NCBI GenBank assembly: GCA_020073265.1
Contig: JAIQFN010000026.1
Span: 1-64,000 of the forward strand
Source of the DNA: Terriglobia bacterium
Lineage (GTDB): Bacteria; Acidobacteriota; Terriglobia; Bryobacterales; Bryobacteraceae
Reading direction: 5' to 3'
Length of the DNA: 64,000 nt
Shown here: positions 2,737 through 60,445 of the stretch, piece after piece
Numbering within the stretch: position 1 is the first letter of the stretch
Layout of the letters: the number at the start of each line of letters is the position of its first letter
The notes under the pieces: generated by a model
What the model saw: the letters and a program-made list of their open reading frames with translations, nothing else
The model's database searches: none
Told to the model about the DNA's origin: nothing
Made by a program: the position numbers and the translations under genes

Positions 2737-4284
2737 ATGAAGTCCATTCGTCACGCCATCGCCGCCGCTGCTCTGGCATTGTTCGCCGCGCCGGCATTTC
2801 CGCAAGCGCTGCCTAATCTCGCGCTCGCACGCCTCGGCTACACCGTTCGGAAACGCACCGTGAATCCCCAGGGCGAGCTGAAACAGAAAATCGACGCCAA
2901 CGACCAGGCCCTGGCCGAAGCCACGCAGAAGGGCCAGATCGGCGAGGTCCGCCGCCTGATCGCAAAAGGCATGGCGCTGCTCAACGGCAACGACTGGACC
3001 GGCGCGCTCGACTTCGCCAATTCGCTCGCGCTGCGCTCCGATCACACCTTCGTCGATTCCTCGCGCCCGTACACCGTGCGGATCGAACAGATCTACAGTC
3101 CGGCCATCGATCTCCCAGCCTCGCTGCGCGCCAAGGTTTCGCTCGAGAAGCCGCGTACTCCGCCCAATGGCCGCGGCGGCAATGGCGCGGCTGCTCAGCC
3201 GCCCGAGTTCGTGAAGGATCTGGGCACGCACGACGAAGTGAGCCGCGACCTGCGCGAGTCGCCCTACCTCATGCATCTCGATCTCGCCAACGTCCCCGAC
3301 GGGAACTATCAGATCCGCGCCGAGGTCTTCGACGGCGAACGCTCGCTCGGATCGTGCAGCCTGCGCATCGTGGCGGAAAAAGGTCTGGACGCGTCGCTCC
3401 AGCGCCTGGAAACCGAAGCCGCCCTCGCGCCCGAGTCGGTGAAAGCCGACGTCGCCTATCCGCTGGATTACGTCCGCAAGGTGAATCTCGGCCTGATCGA
3501 TCGCGGCGCCTTCGACGTCGCCAAGGAAATCGCCACCGCCGAAGAAACGCTGTCCGCCGCCCAGGGAGGCAAAGATCCGTTCGCCGGACGCACCGGCGAC
3601 TTCAAGCGCCACTACTATCTGAAGGACGCCGGCGAGATCATGCCCTATCGCCTCTACATCCCGCCGTCCTACAATGGCTCGCGCGCGTATCCGATGGTGC
3701 TGGCGCTGCACGGCCTGGGAGGCACCGAAGACGGCTTCTTCGGACCCAACTACCGCGCGCTCGACGAAGCCGAGAAGCGCGGCTACATCCTGGTGGCTCC
3801 GCTCGGCTATCGCATCGACGGCGGCTACGGCGGACGCGGCGCCGTCCACACCCGGAGCCAGCAGTTCAGCGAGCAGGACGTCATGGAAGTGCTGCGGCTG
3901 GTCCGCGAGCGCTACAAGATCGATGACAACCGCATCTACCTGCTGGGACACTCGATGGGCGCCATCGGCACCTGGCTGCTCGGCCCGAAGTATCCGAACA
4001 TCTGGGCCGTGCTCGCGCCCATCTCCGGCGCGGGCGATCCGGCCAGCGTCGAGAAGACCCGCGACATCCCGGAGATCGTGGTCCATGGCGACGCCGACAA
4101 CGTCGTGCCGGTGAATTCCTCGCGCGTCATGGTGGCGGCGATGAAGAAGCTGGGCGTCGAGGTGAAGTACATCGAAGTGCCCGGCGGAAGCCACGGCGAC
4201 GTAGCCGCTCCCAACATGAGCGCCATTTTCGATTTCTTCGACGCGCACCGCAAAGGCGTCAAATCGACCGCGTCAGCTCGGTAG
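2737..4284 (+). CDS. Secreted alpha/beta hydrolase (esterase/PHB-depolymerase-like)
   Basis: A 515-residue exported hydrolase. The start at 2737 is chosen because AAGGAGG lies 5 bases upstream and the protein then begins with a clean signal peptide (MKSIRHAIAAAALALFAAPAFPQA). Residues 30-270 are an all-purpose N-terminal region. The C-terminal 250 residues are an alpha/beta-hydrolase: oxyanion region LHGLGGTEDGFFG, nucleophile S406 in GHSMGAIG, an acid in HGDADNVVPV and the histidine in GGSHGD. The layout matches prolyl-oligopeptidase-like or feruloyl-esterase/PHB-depolymerase-type secreted enzymes. Substrate cannot be told. A hairpin repeat element follows its stop codon. Confidence 0.85.
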   Translation: MKSIRHAIAAAALALFAAPAFPQALPNLALARLGYTVRKRTVNPQGELKQKIDANDQALAEATQKGQIGEVRRLIAKGMALLNGNDWTGALDFANSLALRSDHTFVDSSRPYTVRIEQIYSPAIDLPASLRAKVSLEKPRTPPNGRGGNGAAAQPPEFVKDLGTHDEVSRDLRESPYLMHLDLANVPDGNYQIRAEVFDGERSLGSCSLRIVAEKGLDASLQRLETEAALAPESVKADVAYPLDYVRKVNLGLIDRGAFDVAKEIATAEETLSAAQGGKDPFAGRTGDFKRHYYLKDAGEIMPYRLYIPPSYNGSRAYPMVLALHGLGGTEDGFFGPNYRALDEAEKRGYILVAPLGYRIDGGYGGRGAVHTRSQQFSEQDVMEVLRLVRERYKIDDNRIYLLGHSMGAIGTWLLGPKYPNIWAVLAPISGAGDPASVEKTRDIPEIVVHGDADNVVPVNSSRVMVAAMKKLGVEVKYIEVPGGSHGDVAAPNMSAIFDFFDAHRKGVKSTASAR

Positions 4285-4291
4285 GCATCAT

Positions 4292-4339
4292 AGCGTCCCC
4301 ATGAGTGGGGACGCTGCACGCACGAGTGCGTGCGCCACG
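4292..4339. repeat. Modular hairpin repeat, copy 1
   Basis: Two adjacent hairpins. The first has 9-bp arms AGCGTCCCC / GGGGACGCT around ATGAGT. The second is GCACGCACGAGTGCGTGC, 8-bp arms around GA, followed by GCCACG. The second unit is identical, in inverse orientation, to units at 15849-15866 and (same orientation) at 53140-53157. It sits between two converging genes and may double as a transcription terminator. Confidence 0.8.
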
Positions 4340-4340
4340 G

Positions 4341-5105
4341 CTACTGCGCCCTCGCCGCCAACCGCCGCGCAATGGTGTCGTAAACCGACGGATTGAACGC
4401 CAGCCCGATATGCGTCCCCGGCACTTCGACATCCCTGGCCGGGTCATCGGTGATGCAGTACTGCCAGTCCACCACGCCGTCGCTCTTGGTGTAAATCGCG
4501 GTCTGGCGGATCGAATCAGGCAAATCGCGCCGCAACGAATCCAGGAAATTGCAGGTGCAGCGCCCGGTGTAGCAATCCGGCAGCACTCCCGGCCCGTGCG
4601 TATTCAGAATCCGATCGCGAACGATCTCCGCCGCCCGCAGCACCCGCGAATGCACCACCGTGCCGCGAAACGGCGACCCCATCGTGATCACGGACGCAAT
4701 GTCGTTGGGCCTCTGCGCCGCCGCCGATCGCGCGATGATCCCGCCCAGGCTATGACCGATCACGTGCACCGGGCGGCCAGTTTCGCCGCACGCCTGATCG
4801 ATGGTGTCGTTCAGCCGCCGCTTGATCAGCAGATTCGGACACTCGGCGTTCAGTCCGATCCCGGAAAAATAGGCGTGGTAACCGATGCGCCGCAGCCACG
4901 CGTACATCTCCATCAGATAAAGATCGGTGCCGAGAAAACCGGGGATCACCACCACGCCCGAGCCGTCGCCGCGCGGCACGCCCATTCCGTAATATGCCGG
5001 CGTGGCCCGCAGCAGCAGCACCTCGACGCCGAACAGCGCTTCCTGCCACATGGAAATGGGCGCTGCTGACTGATCTGAGCGAATCTGGTAGCGCCTCTCG
5101 GCCAT
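4341..5105 (-). CDS. Alpha/beta-fold lipase/esterase
   Basis: A 254-residue intracellular lipase-like protein, started at the ATG at 5105 (MAERRYQIRSDQ). The upstream frame continues but is antisense-like and unneeded. Features are the oxyanion region VVVIPGFLGTD, nucleophile S119 in GHSLGG, an acid in KSDGVVDW and a histidine in PGTHIGLAFN. A cysteine cluster CYTGRCTCNF at about residue 170 could form a disulfide or bind metal. It shares fold and orientation with the lipase ending 83 bases upstream and probably belongs to the same minus-strand transcript as the wax-ester synthase. No signal peptide is evident, so a role in mobilising stored neutral lipid is plausible but inferred. Confidence 0.8.
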   Translation of the reverse strand: MAERRYQIRSDQSAAPISMWQEALFGVEVLLLRATPAYYGMGVPRGDGSGVVVIPGFLGTDLYLMEMYAWLRRIGYHAYFSGIGLNAECPNLLIKRRLNDTIDQACGETGRPVHVIGHSLGGIIARSAAAQRPNDIASVITMGSPFRGTVVHSRVLRAAEIVRDRILNTHGPGVLPDCYTGRCTCNFLDSLRRDLPDSIRQTAIYTKSDGVVDWQYCITDDPARDVEVPGTHIGLAFNPSVYDTIARRLAARAQ

Positions 5106-5188: not shown

Positions 5189-5986
5189 TCAGGGCGCTCG
5201 CTGAGCCAGCGCCGGGAACGATCCCGAAGTGGACACGCCCAGTGCCCGCTCCACCACCCTCACGATCGCACCCAGGTGATCGAAGCGCGGCCGCGACCTG
5301 GTGTGATCGAGATCGTAGCCCACTTCGGCGAGATGATCGGCCGGCCAAGGCGGCTCGGCCAGATGGTTGTCCGGCCACTGCGCGGAAGCCACGGAAACCA
5401 AGCCATCGTTCTGCCGTTCGTCAGCCGTCGCGCCCGCATGTTCAATCAGCCAGCCGCCTGGACGGAGCGCCGCCGAGTGTGGACCACATCCCGCATAGGC
5501 AAAGTATGTGACTCGATCGCAATCCAGGCACTGCTGGTTAAAGGTCATCGCGGAGCCGGTGGTAAGGCCGCCGAGCCCGCCGGTTGGAAGCCCGAGCCGC
5601 GCGATCGCGTCCTTGACGATGCCGTACACCAGACGCTGCGGACCGATCGGAGTCGGCCCGGCCAGAACATCGGCCACCGGGCTGCCGCGATGCGGAGTGG
5701 CGATGGTGGAAAGCGTCGCGACGCGGCCACTCAGGTTGCGCAGATTATTCGAGATGAGGAAGCGGGCATCCAGGCCGCCCATGCTGTGAGCGATGACATC
5801 GATGCGCCCGGTCGGGAACGCGGCTTCGATCTGTTCGGCAAGCTGGCTCGCTCGCACTGCCACGCTGCCGGTCACGTCCACGCGCGGGAACAGCGCTCCC
5901 GGATACTGCTGGGCGACGCCTCGAAAGTAGTCCAGCCCCTTGAGTCTCTGCGGGATCAGAAAACCGCTGGCGAATACAAGATTCAT
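5189..5986 (-). CDS. Triacylglycerol lipase-like alpha/beta hydrolase
   Basis: A 265-residue lipase. It starts immediately with strand beta-1 (MNLVFASGFLIPQR), so it is probably cytoplasmic. Motifs are nucleophile S68 in AHSMGGLDAR, then TIATPHRGSP, typical of bacterial lipases of the LipA/EstA type, then NDGLVSVASAQW containing the likely acid, and DHLAEVGYDLDH containing the histidine. It starts 37 bases after the wax-ester synthase gene, and the second lipase begins 83 bases further on. The three genes make a probable operon pairing synthesis and hydrolysis of neutral lipids. Confidence 0.85.
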   Translation of the reverse strand: MNLVFASGFLIPQRLKGLDYFRGVAQQYPGALFPRVDVTGSVAVRASQLAEQIEAAFPTGRIDVIAHSMGGLDARFLISNNLRNLSGRVATLSTIATPHRGSPVADVLAGPTPIGPQRLVYGIVKDAIARLGLPTGGLGGLTTGSAMTFNQQCLDCDRVTYFAYAGCGPHSAALRPGGWLIEHAGATADERQNDGLVSVASAQWPDNHLAEPPWPADHLAEVGYDLDHTRSRPRFDHLGAIVRVVERALGVSTSGSFPALAQRAP

Positions 5987-6023
5987 GCTGCTTCCTCCTC
6001 GCGGCCGCCAGGCGGCGGTCTCA

Positions 6024-7697
6024 TCAGTTTGCGCCCGGCGCCGCGCTCACCGGAATCGCGGGTTCATGCACCACCTCAGGCCCGGCTCCGTTGAGCGCCG
6101 GCGCTTCCAGTTCGATTCCCAGGACCGGTTGCTCGATTCCCACGAAGGGCTGCTCAGTTTCCACACTGGCCTGTGCATGTTCCACGCTGGGTTGCTCGAT
6201 TCTAGCGCCGGCCTGCTCGGCCATGGCAGGCGCCTCCTGGACCGCGGCCGGCCGAACCGCACGCGCCGGTCTTGGACGCCTGTGTGCCTTCGCAACGCCC
6301 ACGCCAGCCGCCTGGCGCAATTCCTGGAGAGCTTGATCCAGAAAGCGCTTCAGGCGATCGATATCCGGCACCACCGCAGCGTCGCCCGTCAGGCCGAAAT
6401 ACAGCTTGTGATTGTAACTTTGAATCGCGCAGCCCAACCCCATCTCGTTGCCGATCGGCACGTAAGGATAATACGTCAGCATCTCGCGTCCCAGCACGTA
6501 CAGCGGAGCCTGCGGCCCCGGCACGTTAGTGCAAACCAGATTGAAGGGCGGAACGGGCAGCAGGCTAGTGAGCGGATCGAGCAGCGCCTGCAGCGGCGCG
6601 GGCGTCGCTCCCACCCAGGTGGCCAGCAGATGGATCAGATCGGCCACGCGCGCCGTCTTCAATGCCTCGGTTCTTTGGCGGATGGCATCCAGCAACTTCA
6701 CCGGATCGCGCAGGTCCAAAGGAACGCTGACCGGAAGCATGGAAACGCGATTCCCCAGGCCGTTGGGCTCGCCTTCCCGCCGCAGGTTCACCGGAACCAT
6801 GAGCCGCAGCAGGCGATTCTTCACCGGCGCTCCGTGCAGTTCCGCGTAGCGCCGCACCGCGGAGGTGACCACCGTCAGCACTACATCGTTGAGCGTCCCT
6901 CCGCAGGCTTCCCGGACCTTTTTGACTTCCGGAATCGAGAATTCGCTCCAGGCTACTTTGCGCGGCCCGAGACACGCTTGATTGAACGGCAATCGCTCCA
7001 CCGGCGCCAGCAGCTCCGGCACCAGGCGCAGCAATTGATCCAGTCCCCGCAGCGCCTGATCGCTCATCAGCGACTGCACGATGTTCAGCGTGGCCGCCTG
7101 CGCCGACAGCATGCGCTCCACCATTTCCGAGTACGAGGTAGCCAGAGCATCCACCAGCGACGCGCTTGGACCGGGCAGGGGAGGCGCATGGTAGCGGTTC
7201 TTATGTCCGCTCTGCGGCTGCAGCGTCGGATCCAGCAGCACATTCAACAGCCCCACGCCCGACACGCCGTCCACCAGGCAATGATGCACTCTGGAAATCA
7301 GAACGCTCCGGCCGCCGCTCAGCCCGTCCACAATCGTCATGTCCCAGAGCGGTCTCGAGCGGTCCATCATCTGGGTGAACAGCCGGCCGGCGAAGTTGCG
7401 AAGCTCCGCGTCGGTGCCGCGCTTGAGCTGCGCGTGATGCACGTGATTGGAAATGTCGAAATCCGGGTCGGGCTCCCAGGTCGGATGCCCGACGTTCAGC
7501 GGCGGCGCCACGATCCGCTGGCGATAGCGGGGGATCAGCGGAAGCCGCGATTCGATGAACTCCCGGCACGCTTCGAACGGGATCGGGCCGTCGAAAACCG
7601 ACACGCTCCCGATGTGCAGCGGCATTTCTTTTCGTTCCAGATAAAGGAAAACGGCGTCTTCCGACGCCAACCGATCGCCCGGATACACACGTGCCAT
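6024..7697 (-). CDS. Wax-ester synthase/diacylglycerol acyltransferase (WS/DGAT)
   Basis: A 557-residue enzyme joining acyl-CoA to fatty alcohol or diacylglycerol to make storage wax esters or triacylglycerol. Start 7697 is supported by GGAGG 8 bases upstream and by the family N-terminus MARVYPGDRLASEDAVFLYL. The catalytic HHxxxDG motif is H138-H139-CLV-D143-G144. PLWDM and the C-terminal NVPGP region are also present. After about residue 455 comes a low-complexity tail unusual for the family, with Ala/Arg-rich and then degenerate IEQP-type repeats (EQPSVE, EQPFVGIEQPVLGIE). The tail could act in droplet targeting; that is a guess. Confidence 0.93.
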   Translation of the reverse strand: MARVYPGDRLASEDAVFLYLERKEMPLHIGSVSVFDGPIPFEACREFIESRLPLIPRYRQRIVAPPLNVGHPTWEPDPDFDISNHVHHAQLKRGTDAELRNFAGRLFTQMMDRSRPLWDMTIVDGLSGGRSVLISRVHHCLVDGVSGVGLLNVLLDPTLQPQSGHKNRYHAPPLPGPSASLVDALATSYSEMVERMLSAQAATLNIVQSLMSDQALRGLDQLLRLVPELLAPVERLPFNQACLGPRKVAWSEFSIPEVKKVREACGGTLNDVVLTVVTSAVRRYAELHGAPVKNRLLRLMVPVNLRREGEPNGLGNRVSMLPVSVPLDLRDPVKLLDAIRQRTEALKTARVADLIHLLATWVGATPAPLQALLDPLTSLLPVPPFNLVCTNVPGPQAPLYVLGREMLTYYPYVPIGNEMGLGCAIQSYNHKLYFGLTGDAAVVPDIDRLKRFLDQALQELRQAAGVGVAKAHRRPRPARAVRPAAVQEAPAMAEQAGARIEQPSVEHAQASVETEQPFVGIEQPVLGIELEAPALNGAGPEVVHEPAIPVSAAPGAN

Positions 7698-56536: not shown

Positions 56537-56983
56537 TCAAGCCAGCCGCTCATCCAAGCGGTGTTCGTGCACGCGAATGATTTTTAGGCGCGCGCTTTCG
56601 GAATGGCTCGGGTTGACCAGCACGTTCCATGTGGCCGCCGCCACCACGGAAGGCACGCGGAGCAGCGCTGTGCGGCCAGACCGCAACCACTCGTCGCCGA
56701 TTCGACGCGTTCGAGCGGCGTGGACCGGCCAATCCGATCCCAACATGTTCAGGTCCGCGGCGTCCGCTGCGATATCATCCGGCGCATTGATTTCTAGGTA
56801 GCGGAACGCAACGGGAACGTCGGCGACATCGATTTCAGCGTGCACCAGAACCTCGAGTAGCGCTGTGGCCGGATTCGGCGCGCAATAGACGATCGATCGG
56901 CCGCCTGTGTGCCAGCGCCCCGACGCTCGCAAGCCGCCTGTCCCTTCGACCGAAGGATGGTTGCTGACTCGCTAGTGGATCAC
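56537..56983 (-). pseudogene. RES-domain toxin with early amber codon
   Basis: The gene should start at GTG 56983, overlapping the antitoxin stop (GTGA). It reads MIH, then TAG at 56974-56972, then RVSNHPSVEGTGGLRASGRWHTGGRSIVYCAPN and on to 56537 uninterrupted. Where relatives have W-R-V/I-S-N, this has a stop, so one change TGG to TAG accounts for it. RES toxins (NAD-degrading ADP-ribosyltransferase fold) need R, Y and E residues, seen in GRW, IVYCAPN and ALLEVLVH. Initiation inside the frame would drop strand one. Probably inactive; a readthrough or nonstandard start cannot be excluded. Confidence 0.75.
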
Positions 56984-57462
56984 GCCGCCATGCCGTCGTC
57001 GATTTGGATCAGCAGCTCCTCCACGATGCGCGCGCCGGCCCCGGTGGCCAGCAGATCAATCGGCGACCTCCCGCGGAATTGACGCTTGGGCTTGCGCAGC
57101 CAGCGCCACGCGCGGTCGCTCTCGGCGAAAACCTCCTCCGCCAGCGACGCGACCCAGGCCACGCGAACCGCCCGGTCTGATTCTTCCGTGGAAAGATCCT
57201 GATGCTTCGCCAGCCGGTGAGCCAGCGTTCTGCGCGCCACGATCAGGTTGTAGATCTCGCCGCTGGAAAAGCCGCCTCGCATCAACGCACGGATCGCGCG
57301 GGCCGGAAGGCGTTTCTCGATCAACGCCACCACGTCGCGCTCGGAACGAATCCGCGAAACTCCGAGCTTCCCGCGCAATCGGGCGTAGAAGTCATCCTGT
57401 GCGGGTTGGGTGCTCTCAGTCTGCGTTGGCAATCTGCCTTCACTATAGGGGCAAGTTGCCAA
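56980..57462 (-). CDS. Xre/MbcA/ParS-type antitoxin of RES toxin
   Basis: A 160-residue antitoxin at most. The C-terminal DUF2384 region is clear: LSTEESDRAVRVAWVASLAEEVFAESDRAWRWLRKPKRQFRGRSPIDLLATGAGARIVEELLIQIDDGMAA. The N-terminal helices (SERDVVALIEKRLPARAIRALMRGGFSSGEIYNLIVARRTLAHRLAK) form the HTH. The start is unsure: TTG 57462 lies inside the promoter, TTG 57432 follows it. It overlaps the toxin frame by four bases. The toxin is broken while the antitoxin is intact, the safe order of decay. Confidence 0.8.
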   Translation of the reverse strand: MATCPYSEGRLPTQTESTQPAQDDFYARLRGKLGVSRIRSERDVVALIEKRLPARAIRALMRGGFSSGEIYNLIVARRTLAHRLAKHQDLSTEESDRAVRVAWVASLAEEVFAESDRAWRWLRKPKRQFRGRSPIDLLATGAGARIVEELLIQIDDGMAA

Positions 57463-57472: not shown

Positions 57473-57577
57473 GAGCTGTTTCCGGGGAGGAGCCGTCAAG
57501 TCAGCATTGACCGTTACCGGCGATGCAACGCCCGAGCTGCAGGCGCATAATAAAGATGCAAGAAGTAACGCGGACCC

Positions 57578-57586
57578 TGTTATAAT
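57578..57586 (+). promoter_or_regulatory. Extended -10 promoter of CHAT operon
   Basis: TGTTATAAT at 57578-57586 is a perfect extended -10 element (TGnTATAAT). No -35 box is evident, consistent with extended -10 promoters. Predicted start near 57593, about 60 bases before the CHAT start codon. Confidence 0.6.
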
Positions 57587-57653
57587 CGCCGCAGCACTGT
57601 AAGTACCAACCTTCGTCCAACGCTGCTTGGACATTTTCATTGCTTTTCTAACG

Positions 57654-59048
57654 ATGCCCAGGCGTGTGTCTGTAGTCTTCTTAATCTTGTTGTGTCTCGC
57701 GACTTCGGCCAGGTCCCCCAGGAAACAGGTCTGGCTGGAGCAATCCTCACGGGGTGGAACCGCATCCGCTGGCCAATTGCGCGCTTCTACTCAAGCCCAG
57801 GCAGTCGAGGCGCTGCTGGCGCGAAATCCTCCAGCCGTCACTGAAGCATTCCTTACTGTCGAACGCGATCGCAGCTTCGATTTTGGGGAAACGAACCCAA
57901 CTTCACGCACCACGCCGGAGAGTTTCGCCCACATCGCGCTGCCGAATATTCAGCACGGCATCAGTCCTGACGAAGCCGTGCTCAGCCTGTATCTCGGCAC
58001 GCAGTCTTCCTGCTTGTGGGCGGTCACGCAAGAAGGCTTTGAATTTCATCGTCTCGCCGCGCCAACGCAATTGGCTGCTTTAGCACATGAATTTCGGAAC
58101 GCGGTGGAATCGAATTCGCCGCATAGGGATGTACTCGGGCAAAGGCTATACCGGGAGTTGTTTGGAGAATTAAGTGCTGGCGTTAGGCGGAAGCCTCAGT
58201 GGTTAGTCATCGCCGATGACACGTTGTTCGACGTGCCATTCCCAACCCTCGTCGCAGGAAATCAGAAAGGCAATCCCGTGTACCTGGTGGAAGAGCACAG
58301 CACGCAGCGAATTTCCAGCGCTCTCACGCTCGTTCAACCCGTCCACAGGGCGGCCCGCGGCGCGTTCCTGGGTATCGGCGACGGAATCTACAATACGGCG
58401 GACCCGCGCTGGACCAGCCGGCATGGCCGAATCTCCAGTGAACTAAGAGACTCCACCTTTCAGTTGACACGACTGCCTGCCAGCGGAACCGAGTTGGCGT
58501 CCAGCGCCCGCGAATGGCGCGGCAACACCAACGTCCTGTTGACCGGCCTCGGAGCTTCCAGCGCTTCCTTCCAAGCCAGTCTGAAGATGCGGCCGCGCGT
58601 GATCCACATCGCCGCACACGTGATTCAACCGGACGGCAATGCCGGGCAGGCCTTGATCTATCTGGGCCTTTCAGAGAACGGCCGGCCCCAGACCCTGACG
58701 CAGAACGAGATTGCCAAACTGAACGTCTCCGGTTCCACCGTGGTGATGAGCGGGTGCAGTTCGGCCGGCTTGCAGTCCGTAGAGGGCGCGGCCATCCTGG
58801 GGCTCACGCGCGCGTGGTTGTTGGCGGGAGCGCGCGCCGTGGTGGGCAGCCGTTGGGCTACCCCCGACGACACCGGCGAGTTGTTTCAGGTTTTCTACAG
58901 AGATCTGCGGGACCGTTGCGACCGCGGCGCTGACGGTCGTGTCATAGGCGCATCTCTCCAGCAGGCGCAGCAAGCCATGCTGCGTTCCTCGACGTGGCGT
59001 TCCAACCCTAGCTATTGGGGCGCTCTTTACGCGGTCGGAAAGGAGTAG
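57654..59048 (+). CDS. CHAT-domain caspase-like protease
   Basis: A 464-residue protein from the ATG at 57654 (TTG 57627 is an alternative). Residues 1-20 (MPRRVSVVFLILLCLATSAR) look like a signal peptide or membrane anchor. Residues 95-464 form a CHAT domain (caspase fold): SLYLGTQSSCLWAVT, WLVIADDTLFDVPFPTLV, FLGIGDGIYN, and then catalytic H322 in IHIAAHVI and C368 in VVMSGCSSAG, followed by GARAVVGSRWATPDDT. The dyad is intact, so proteolysis is expected. Unlike most CHAT proteins there are no TPRs. It is first in an operon with a sigma factor 8 bases downstream and a membrane anti-sigma protein, so cleavage of the latter is the natural hypothesis. Confidence 0.88.
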   Translation: MPRRVSVVFLILLCLATSARSPRKQVWLEQSSRGGTASAGQLRASTQAQAVEALLARNPPAVTEAFLTVERDRSFDFGETNPTSRTTPESFAHIALPNIQHGISPDEAVLSLYLGTQSSCLWAVTQEGFEFHRLAAPTQLAALAHEFRNAVESNSPHRDVLGQRLYRELFGELSAGVRRKPQWLVIADDTLFDVPFPTLVAGNQKGNPVYLVEEHSTQRISSALTLVQPVHRAARGAFLGIGDGIYNTADPRWTSRHGRISSELRDSTFQLTRLPASGTELASSAREWRGNTNVLLTGLGASSASFQASLKMRPRVIHIAAHVIQPDGNAGQALIYLGLSENGRPQTLTQNEIAKLNVSGSTVVMSGCSSAGLQSVEGAAILGLTRAWLLAGARAVVGSRWATPDDTGELFQVFYRDLRDRCDRGADGRVIGASLQQAQQAMLRSSTWRSNPSYWGALYAVGKE

Positions 59049-59056
59049 TAACCGAC

Positions 59057-59788
59057 ATGCCTGCGACTATTGGAAAAACCGATCCCAGTACAACACTGGA
59101 GCAGACCGGAAATTGGCCGGCCGGCGACTCCGCGGACGGCTCGGCCGTCGACGCGGAAACGCTCGAGACTCAAAGCCAGCCTTCCGCGCGCACTTCGGTG
59201 GATTGGGCTGAGCTGGTGGAACGCATCCAGCGCGGCGACGAGTCCGGAATGGAAGATCTCTACCGGCTGTTCGCCCGGGGCGTCCGCTTTTATCTGTGCC
59301 GTCAACTCGGATCCCAGGAACTCGAGGACAAGATTCACGATACGTTCCTGATCGTAGTTCAGGCCATCCGTCGCGGCGATCTGCGGGAGCCCGAGCGGCT
59401 GATGGGCTTCGTGCGGACGGTGGTGCGGCGTCAGGTGGCGGCGCACATCGATCACCTGGTGCACAGCCGCCGCGAGCGCTTGCACCTGGACCTGGGAGTT
59501 CGTATCGCGGATGTGCGCCGCAACCCCGAGCAAAATGCCGCGTTCCGGGAAAAGGTGGATCTCATGCTGGAGGTCCTGAAGGAGCTTTCAGAACGTGATC
59601 GCGACATCCTGACCCGTTTCTACCTGAATGAGCAGAGCCAGGAGCAGATCTGCGAGGAAATGAACCTTTCGGAGACCCAGTTCCGCCTGTTGAAATCCCG
59701 GGCCAAAGCCCGCTTCGGCGAACTGGGCCAAAAGAAACTGCGGCACAAACAGCCGCTTTCACTTTCTTTGAGAACTTCTGCCGGCTAG
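59057..59788 (+). CDS. Sigma-70 family RNA polymerase sigma factor (ECF-like)
   Basis: A 243-residue sigma factor started at the ATG at 59057, with AAAGGAG in the end of the CHAT gene, so translation is probably coupled. Residues 1-45 are polar and disordered. Region 2: VERIQRGDESGMEDLYRLFARGVRFYLCRQLGSQELEDKIHDTFLIVVQAI ... RLMGFVRTVVRRQVAAHID. Region 4: VLKELSERDRDILTRFYLNEQSQEQICEEMNLSETQFRLLKSRAKARF, an HTH. The long linker contains LHLDLGVRIADVRRNPEQNAAF. Target genes are unknown; the promoter of its own operon is of ordinary extended -10 type. Confidence 0.88.
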   Translation: MPATIGKTDPSTTLEQTGNWPAGDSADGSAVDAETLETQSQPSARTSVDWAELVERIQRGDESGMEDLYRLFARGVRFYLCRQLGSQELEDKIHDTFLIVVQAIRRGDLREPERLMGFVRTVVRRQVAAHIDHLVHSRRERLHLDLGVRIADVRRNPEQNAAFREKVDLMLEVLKELSERDRDILTRFYLNEQSQEQICEEMNLSETQFRLLKSRAKARFGELGQKKLRHKQPLSLSLRTSAG

Positions 59789-59881
59789 TCGCACTCCAAC
59801 CAATAGGATTCGTCGGCTAGCTTACAGCCGCTGGACCTGAGGAATCGATGGCCCCGGTCCGGTCATCGAGGAGTTCTTGCC

Positions 59882-60445
59882 ATGAACATCGGCACTGATT
59901 GTGACTTTCCGGATAACCTTCTGGAAAGATACGCCATGGGGAAACTTTCCGAACAGGAAAGCGCCCCCTTGGAAGAACATTTACTTGTTTGTCCCCCCTG
60001 CCAGCAGCGCCTCGACGAGTTGGATGAGTTTCTGGCCGTAACCAAAACCGCCCTGGCGGCAAAAACCCCGAGATCTCCGCAGCTCATGTGGGCGGCGGGT
60101 CTTGCCGCGGTGCTTCTCATTTTGATGGCGCCCTTGTACCACAACCCCATCACGGCAGTCACTCTGAACACCGAGCGCGGAGCAGCCGCGTTTCCACGGG
60201 TGCAGTCCGGCGGAGGCGTGCTGCTAAGAATCGACGTGACCCAGATCCCGCAACCAGATGGTTACCAGTTGGAAGTGGTGGATTCCGGAGGCCAGCCCGT
60301 GTGGCACGCGGCGGCGGAGGCTTTTCACGACGGAATCGTCACCACCGTTCCGAAGCGTCTCGCGCCAGGCAGATACTGGATCCGCCTCTACGACACCGGC
60401 AGTCCCTGGAACCTGCTGCGCGAGTACGGTCTGGACGTCGACTAG
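59882..60445 (+). CDS. Membrane zinc-finger anti-sigma factor
   Basis: A 187-residue protein with GAGGAG 8 bases upstream of its ATG. Residues 10-52 are a ZAS-type anti-sigma domain, DNLLERYAMGKLSEQESAPLEEHLLVCPPCQQRLDELDEF, with H33-x3-C37-x2-C40. Residues 68-86 are a transmembrane helix. Residues 90-187 are a periplasmic beta-domain (GVLLRIDVTQIPQPDGYQLEVVDSGGQPVWHAAAE ... APGRYWIRLYD). The design, cytoplasmic sigma-binding and periplasmic sensor, suits release by regulated cleavage. It is third in the CHAT operon, 93 bases after the sigma gene. Confidence 0.85.
   Translation: MNIGTDCDFPDNLLERYAMGKLSEQESAPLEEHLLVCPPCQQRLDELDEFLAVTKTALAAKTPRSPQLMWAAGLAAVLLILMAPLYHNPITAVTLNTERGAAAFPRVQSGGGVLLRIDVTQIPQPDGYQLEVVDSGGQPVWHAAAEAFHDGIVTTVPKRLAPGRYWIRLYDTGSPWNLLREYGLDVD

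Follow-up and report, generated by a model that had tools for sequence, protein, structure and literature searches.

The DdvA-DdvS system of Myxococcus xanthus, attributed to Bernal-Bernal et al. (2024), reportedly joins a zinc finger, a helix, and a tetratricopeptide repeat (TPR)-CHAT part in one chain, and the His-Cys site of its CHAT part is said to be incomplete. DdvA of Myxococcus is an anti-sigma factor according to the titles of its Protein Data Bank (PDB) entries (8rot, 8rw5, and 8rlz), and DdvS controls a defence island (PMC12288465). Craspase, the caspase-fold TPR-CHAT protease of type III-E CRISPR systems, has the sigma inhibitor Csx30 as its substrate and is encoded with an extracytoplasmic function (ECF) sigma factor (PMC10028731). 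The protease of the type III CRISPR system CalpL-CalpT-CalpS cuts an anti-sigma factor and frees an ECF sigma factor (PMC11417357), and in the RseA/DegS and RsiW systems proteases destroy a membrane anti-sigma factor stepwise (PMC10028731). ECF54 sigma factors have CHAT-domain neighbours and are described as having no anti-sigma factor, and proteolytic control has been proposed for them (PMC8999054). Here, we describe an operon in a 64-kb window (the whole stretch of DNA analysed, contig JAIQFN010000026.1) from a soil bacterium of the acidobacterial family Bryobacteraceae, which encodes a CHAT protease, an ECF sigma factor, and a zinc-finger anti-sigma factor (ZAS) as separate proteins. With a probability of roughly 60%, judged from sequence comparison and structure prediction, the operon would be a switch across the inner membrane in which an extracytoplasmic caspase-fold site-1 protease cuts ZAS and so frees the sigma factor.

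The three genes lie on the plus strand in the order CHAT, sigma, ZAS, with these features:

57654..59048, + strand: CHAT protease gene, 464 aa, a family copy without TPRs (Pfam CHAT PF12770, E 2.3e-41)
57666..57710, + strand: hydrophobic N-terminal segment of CHAT, signal peptide or anchor (hydropathy)
58617..58619, + strand: codon of the catalytic His322 of CHAT (invariant in 47/47 and 80/80 rows)
58755..58757, + strand: codon of the catalytic Cys368 of CHAT (invariant in 47/47 and 80/80 rows)
59040..59045, + strand: AAGGAG ribosome-binding site of the sigma gene, in the 3' end of the CHAT gene (sequence)
59057..59788, + strand: ECF sigma factor, 243 aa, ATG start (TIGR02937 above cut-off; Sigma70_r4_2)
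59882..60445, + strand: ZAS anti-sigma factor, 187 aa (zf-HC2 above cut-off; AlphaFold2 model)
59918..60004, + strand: zf-HC2 anti-sigma domain, ZAS residues 13-41 (Pfam profile and alignment)
60080..60139, + strand: transmembrane helix of ZAS, residues about 67-86 (hydropathy and model)
60143..60442, + strand: predicted extracytoplasmic beta-sandwich of ZAS, residues 88-187 (model; profile A5 matches 201/237 family genomes)
60176..60178, + strand: codon of Arg99 of ZAS, candidate cut site, in the loop that follows strand 1 (invariant in 67/67 and 46/46 rows)

Profile searches and alignment placed the three proteins where a preliminary description, made from the sequence alone, had put them. 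The CHAT protein belongs to PF12770 (142.6 bits against a curated cut-off of 24, residues 161-462) and has an intact H322/C368 dyad, which none of the aligned relatives lacks; the 80 rows of the larger alignment were found through a motif that does not contain the dyad. The sigma factor scores 54.2 bits with the sigma70-ECF model TIGR02937 (cut-off 42.9) and matches Sigma70_r4_2 above the Pfam cut-off (E 3.8e-9), and Sigma70_r2 alone, at 20.9 bits, falls below its cut-off of 24. ZAS scores 26.2 bits with zf-HC2 (cut-off 22.2). Of its H..HxxxCxxC zinc-ligand pattern, H33, C37, and C40 are kept, and the first position, which lies shortly before the matched domain and is a His in 66/67 ZAS rows, is Asp8, next to Cys7. 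The sigma AAGGAG adjoins the CHAT stop codon. The exact CHAT start is uncertain, because no Shine-Dalgarno sequence precedes the ATG at 57654; an alternative in-frame TTG lies at 57627.

The operon is not peculiar to this contig. We searched 101 genomes with the CHAT protein and read the gene order in wider stretches with profiles built from the window proteins. The sample, the best 80 of 153 loci by CHAT similarity, tests adjacency and not prevalence. CHAT, sigma, and ZAS follow one another on one strand within 2.5 kb in 67 of these 80 loci, and seven of the other 13 loci stop less than 1 kb past CHAT. The switch model had been staked on the three genes being neighbours in related genomes, and it survived this comparison. 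Sequence comparison indicates that the operon is a standard feature of Bryobacteraceae, beyond chance (the family genomes were taken as such, their members being mostly labelled Bryobacterales, Bryobacteraceae, or Solibacter). A phylum-wide search for the ZAS ectodomain (E≤1e-6, 396 sampled genomes) gave three matches, all in the same family, and a genome of a sister family (G061) carries the operon on a cut contig (L113). Large zinc-finger open reading frames (ORFs) in two further genomes (G062 and G076), of which the first 160 residues were read, are possible DdvA-like fusions.

The strongest evidence for a functional link within the operon is the co-occurrence of CHAT with the ZAS ectodomain. 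Among 237 family genomes, each searched for all three parts, the sigma factor was matched in 212 (E≤1e-45), CHAT in 185 (E≤1e-30), and the ectodomain in 201 (E≤1e-3). Doubtful genomes were rechecked and the sets recounted by script, the CHAT-less and ectodomain-less sets being partly complements of the positives. We scored as CHAT-positive fourteen genomes, G016 and G047 among them, in which the CHAT match was split or ran into a contig edge; one of the fourteen, G111, was included on the fragment alone, irrespective of where sigma lies. The CHAT match of G219 (E 1e-31) and its sigma gene are on different contigs, for which reason we treated this match as a paralogue. The 212 sigma-positive genomes then comprise 189 with CHAT (14 by fragments), 22 without, and one (G261) cut by a contig edge. 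The ectodomain is present in all but one of the 189 CHAT-bearing genomes, the exception being G185, which is 58% complete and whose sigma gene lies 330 bases from a contig end. By contrast, 19 of the 22 CHAT-less genomes have no ectodomain match, and in 16 of the 22 a ZAS that ends before the ectodomain stands beside sigma (G001, G002, G003, G004, where it is also interrupted, G005, G011, G024, G042, G103, G188, G189, G219, G229, G250, G253, and G256). The short ZAS of G005 keeps the membrane helix and ends after it, and that of G256 is weakly hydrophobic shortly before it ends. Weak matches to the ectodomain profile occur in G250 (5.6e-4) and G256 (4.7e-5) despite the short ZAS beside sigma. 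The ZAS of G190 is incomplete because the contig ends within it, and no ZAS was seen near sigma in G101, G191, G192, and G193.

This association gives a Fisher p of 6e-23 by profile matches (188/189 vs 3/22), of 1e-26 by the ZAS beside sigma (188/189 vs 1/22), and of 2.6e-14 by raw cut-offs with no reassignment (174/176 vs 18/36), all three ignoring kinship. Genera g1, g25, g37, and g47 each contain both species that have CHAT and species that lack it, with ZAS visible in either kind; genus g54 is also mixed for CHAT, and no ZAS was seen in its CHAT-less member. Six genomes (G008, G018, G033, G047, G048, and G050) have CHAT and sigma together and a ZAS with ectodomain elsewhere; since these split operons keep the ectodomain, the link is with the ectodomain and not with mere position. 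Among 67 complete loci, CHAT distances also track ectodomain distances once sigma is accounted for (partial correlation 0.48, Mantel p 0.0005), whereas sigma and ectodomain distances given CHAT do not correlate (-0.07). The corresponding value for CHAT and the zinc-finger part of ZAS, given sigma, is 0.39; CHAT thus tracks the rest of ZAS too, and co-divergence supports the link without isolating the ectodomain. Together, this strong comparative evidence indicates that CHAT and the ZAS ectodomain work together.

The two would meet on the same side of the membrane. The exported look of CHAT noted earlier reappeared in a hydrophobic N-terminal run whose best 11 residues (5-15) have a mean hydropathy of 3.35. 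Scored with a home-made hydropathy measure, 86 of the 98 CHAT genes whose 5' end could be read encode a strongly hydrophobic N-terminal segment (11-mer hydropathy ≥2.0), 95 of the 98 exceed internal controls, and five have a lipobox-like motif. CHAT frames below 700 aa were dropped from this count, with the window copy kept. CHAT is therefore predicted on the same side as the ZAS ectodomain, the genes mostly starting like export signals, and is probably sent outside the inner membrane, exported or membrane-anchored. Among the dropped short frames are L067 and L078, which lie inside contigs with TPR-like sequence upstream of one in-frame stop; this stop splits TPR from CHAT in relatives G027 and G019 (L067, ORF 2951-4372; L078, ORF 5376-7007), and sequencing error, decay, and a two-part protein are candidate explanations.

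Uncut CHAT frames of relatives span 759-903 aa from stop to stop, and three of four scanned relatives have TPR matches above a Pfam cut-off (the fourth, L204, is weaker, best E 8e-5). The window CHAT has no TPR profile match at E≤1, and its hydrophobic segment is joined directly to the CHAT end. The absence of TPRs reported in the preliminary description therefore holds for this copy but not for its family: by sequence, the relatives encode a signal-bearing TPR-CHAT, and the window copy has lost the TPRs. We modelled the window CHAT with AlphaFold2 from 80 rows and obtained good confidence from roughly residue 91 onwards (mean predicted local distance difference test score, pLDDT, 83.5). Compared with VIA-align, the model is most similar to Csx29 (7y9x, Z 25.4, root-mean-square deviation [rmsd] 3.3, 320 residues aligned), followed by DdvA (8rw5, Z 22.4, rmsd 3.0, 276 residues) and separase (5fc2, Z 22.4, rmsd 3.4, 293 residues), with SAVED-CHAT (8tl0, Z 16.7) and caspases (near Z 12) lower down; gingipains are also among the matches. 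In profile searches, CHAT matches DdvA (8rot, E 3.3e-10) and ZAS matches the DdvA chain weakly (E 0.086). The fused architecture ascribed to DdvA agrees with the PDB titles and with both profiles matching DdvA chains, and by analogy DdvA would lend independent support to the site-1 protease idea.

The AlphaFold2 model of ZAS (67 rows, mean pLDDT 89.6) has a helical N-terminal domain, a hydrophobic helix at residues 67-86, and a beta-sandwich at 90-186, in keeping with the single helix and outer domain described earlier. The ectodomain of about 100 residues retrieved generic, unrelated beta-sandwiches in a structure search (best Z 9.3), among which no specific fold family stands out. Arg99 is invariant in both sets of ZAS rows, which share genomes, and in the model it lies 13 residues past the membrane helix, within the segment 96-111 that connects strands 1 and 2; R168 and E181 are likewise invariant. 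We predict Arg99 as a candidate cut site. Separases and gingipains, both among the structural matches of CHAT, cut after basic residues. Craspase cuts Csx30 in a small flexible loop (PMC10028731).

On the reading that we put at about 60%, the zinc-finger end of ZAS would hold sigma at the membrane, and the C-terminal beta-sandwich would lie outside, in the same place as the exported or anchored CHAT. CHAT would become activated, in relatives probably through the TPR domain, and would cut the ectodomain, most likely in the loop with Arg99, after which an intramembrane protease would finish ZAS and sigma would be freed. In the window copy, without the TPR part, the protease would be unregulated, differently regulated, or failing. 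The gene order, the conserved dyad, and the shared presence, loss, and divergence of CHAT and the ectodomain are observations; that CHAT is exported, that it cuts ZAS and at which site, that a second protease follows, and that a signal starts the process are inferences. Given the co-occurrence, the export-like N-termini, and the likeness to DdvA, the site-1 protease-like switch proposed in the preliminary description is the best-supported reading, with proteolysis as its likeliest mechanism and cutting as its conjectural part.

Several observations weigh against it. One genome (G271, genus g102) has sigma and a full ZAS, and no CHAT orthologue was found in it; another (G057) has CHAT apart from sigma-ZAS. 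The sigma tree is weakly resolved, so that losses are not firmly countable: six changes of CHAT state appear on the best tree, and only two independent pairs stand on well-supported branches. The CHAT N-termini were called signal-like by the home-made hydropathy score, and 10 of 67 ZAS rows fall under the hydropathy threshold used for the membrane helix. The conservation of Arg99, like that of R168 and E181, may be structural. Finally, the window copy, which lacks the TPRs and a clear upstream peptide gene and carries Asp8 and Ala380, may not work.

Joint loss and co-divergence would fit any direct partnership, including a stable sensing or braking complex in which ZAS stays uncut, for example one in which the ectodomain restrains CHAT and CHAT cuts something else. 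The ordinary beta-sandwich of the ectodomain suits this, and securin, which restrains separase, is a precedent (PMC9729208). The dyad, invariant in all 80 rows, and the invariant Arg in a membrane-near loop suit cutting but are compatible with such a complex, which we consider rather unlikely. Much less probable is that CHAT is a mere output enzyme under sigma control, with no contact to ZAS. It shares an operon with sigma, and an extended -10-like box and an inverted repeat lie upstream of CHAT in many relatives, but the box resembles a housekeeping promoter, and an output enzyme leaves unexplained why the ectodomain is lost alongside CHAT while sigma and the zinc finger stay. We give as little credence to a cytoplasmic CHAT that cuts ZAS or another protein there, on the model of Craspase, whose substrate Csx30 inhibits an ECF sigma factor (PMC10028731): the partner domain identified by co-loss is the extracytoplasmic one, and both the hydrophobic N-termini and the lipobox-like motifs speak against a cytoplasmic enzyme.

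Whatever mechanism the family uses, the window copy could be a decaying remnant of the family operon, a possibility that is compatible with the switch and that we rank below even odds yet above the stable complex. It has lost the TPR domain, and its upstream peptide gene is lost or worn; its first zinc ligand has changed from His to Asp8 (1/67), Ala380 replaces a Gly found in each of the 79 other CHAT rows (a change that slightly raised our estimate for decay), its 5' side is now occupied by a RES/Xre toxin-antitoxin pair, and none of the four congeners searched (G001-G004) carries a CHAT orthologue, their ZAS being short. Against decay, all three reading frames are open, CHAT retains 30 of the 31 columns with a conservation of 95% or more among the other 79 rows, both sigma and ZAS have ribosome-binding sites that look intact, and CHAT and the signal-like segment share one frame. 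The copy may still work in a simplified form, or it may have begun to decay. The flanking features on the 5' side are:

57573..57602, + strand: possible relic, now worn, of the peptide gene found upstream in relatives (..DPVIIAAAL*), with no clear start codon (sequence)
56537-56932, - strand: RES toxin gene, upstream neighbour (profile match)
56980-57462, - strand: Xre/ParS antitoxin gene, upstream neighbour (profile match)

The RES/Xre-ParS pair (56537-57462, - strand) sits where the TPR part and the peptide gene are missing, and its arrival may have removed both. The downstream neighbours, a DUF5612/ACT protein and a HAD phosphatase (Pfam), are also on the minus strand; like the RES/Xre genes, they fall outside the operon because of their orientation. 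The same genome has two further TPR-CHAT genes, each next to a sigma-like and an anti-sigma-like gene; these clusters are paralogues of the window operon. On contig 123 (L091), a CHAT protein of 937 aa is accompanied by matches to Sigma70_r2 (21.9 bits) and zf-HC2 (17.9 bits), both below cut-off; contig 57 (L092) encodes a CHAT protein of 1099 aa, a sigma factor of 246 aa above cut-off, and a 481-aa protein with a hydrophobic stretch and TPRs and no zf-HC2 match. Congeners G001 and G002 carry a paralogous CHAT-sigma-ZAS cluster instead (L086 and L087).

A tiny ORF precedes TPR-CHAT in many relatives, for example MEPIIIIPPVLWL or MPTDPIIIIFRTVD, with the consensus M..[D/E]PIIII.. (e.g., L045, L064, L165, and L193). 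The 46 peptides with the D/E-P motif have 10-23 aa (median 15). A fixed pattern is present in 53 of 90 upstream regions, the window being among the 37 without it, and in none of the 90 reverse strands; dinucleotide shuffles gave 0/90 in 19 of 20 rounds and 1/90 in one. Across 1.52 Mb of locus sequence (some loci overlap), a stricter form has 60 occurrences, all of them just before CHAT. In 61 whole genomes, the DNA pattern is found at 10 places in nine genomes, eight of them 73-248 bases before the CHAT frame; the tenth match (G023) is part of a longer frame. Neither the region upstream of sigma in the eight CHAT-less genomes identified first nor that upstream of the CHAT paralogues tested contains the pattern. 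The P and V positions of the 46 peptides use all four codons, and the D and E positions both codons; this variation points to selection on the peptide itself. A second free-standing peptide gene, MSENDPIIIIIPPFID, with a good ribosome-binding site, lies on the minus strand at about 2093 of L251 (G009 contig 471), away from any CHAT found.

Candidate roles for the peptide are ligand, substrate, and leader peptide. Ile codons followed by hairpins suggest an attenuator; the several codons at the D, E, P, and V positions and the second copy in G009, which stands away from CHAT with its own ribosome-binding site, make one less likely. The peptide resembles streptococcal short hydrophobic peptide (SHP) pheromones such as DIIIIVGG, and we claim no relation. 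SHP pheromones act on TPR-type regulators. The peptide gene is the most novel element of the system, and one may imagine a four-part peptide-gated switch in which the TPR part reads or processes the M..[D/E]PIIII.. peptide, CHAT cuts ZAS at Arg99, and the window copy is what was left after joint loss of peptide and TPRs; we hold this extended scheme to be speculative and on balance doubtful.

Between the peptide gene and CHAT of relatives lie an extended -10-like box, TCTGGTATGAT, and, directly after it, a long inverted repeat (e.g., L056:4287-4355 and L203:4545-4612). Both came out of a bipartite-motif scan upstream of 98 CHAT genes, which gave no ECF-type signature; an autoregulated ECF promoter was therefore dropped, and we do not claim self-regulation. 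The inverted repeat scores at least 12 in 47 of 89 loci vs 0 of 88 simple shuffles. By eye, its arms vary together, and it could be an operator or an mRNA hairpin.

In keeping with the absence of CRISPR stated in the preliminary description, we found no CRISPR-like array or direct repeats in the 64-kb window. The defence role that had been suggested there gained no support, as PADLOC gave no match for CHAT, sigma, or ZAS, in a scan that covered these three proteins and not the other genes of the window. Among the papers listed by literature searches, whose coverage fell short of most subscription papers, none treats a CHAT-sigma-ZAS operon in Acidobacteria in its title or abstract.

Release of sigma factors by separase/caspase-like enzymes is already known from CRISPR Craspase and from the fused anti-sigma factor DdvA. 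A family-wide operon that encodes protease and anti-sigma factor as separate, co-varying genes would suggest a more general form of envelope-crossing signalling and would bear on the origin of the fused and the CRISPR versions. Cleavage could be tested simply, with two proteins and with one cysteine and one arginine already singled out, and the upstream peptide gene could supply the missing signal.

The operon would work like DdvA and Craspase, yet is neither. Like DdvA-DdvS, it would have an ECF sigma factor held by a membrane anti-sigma factor that is coupled to an extracytoplasmic TPR-CHAT; unlike in DdvA, the protease and the anti-sigma factor have a gene each (in the window and in 67/80 loci), both dyad residues are present, and a beta-sandwich belongs to ZAS itself. 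With Craspase (Csx29-Csx30-CASP-sigma) it shares the caspase-fold CHAT, closest in structure to Csx29, the ECF sigma factor, and, if ZAS is cut, a sigma inhibitor as substrate, whereas Craspase is RNA-guided and CRISPR-encoded, and here CHAT has an export-signal-like N-terminus and the anti-sigma factor is a zinc-finger membrane protein. The protease of CalpL-CalpT-CalpS is an unrelated enzyme, Lon-type and triggered by cyclic tetra-adenylate (cA4). The operon would share with RseA/DegS and RsiW the stepwise proteolysis of a membrane anti-sigma factor; to our knowledge, the site-1 enzymes of those systems are not caspase-fold. ECF54 sigma factors likewise have CHAT-domain neighbours, but here ZAS lies within the operon. 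We judge the system to be a split relative of the DdvA logic.

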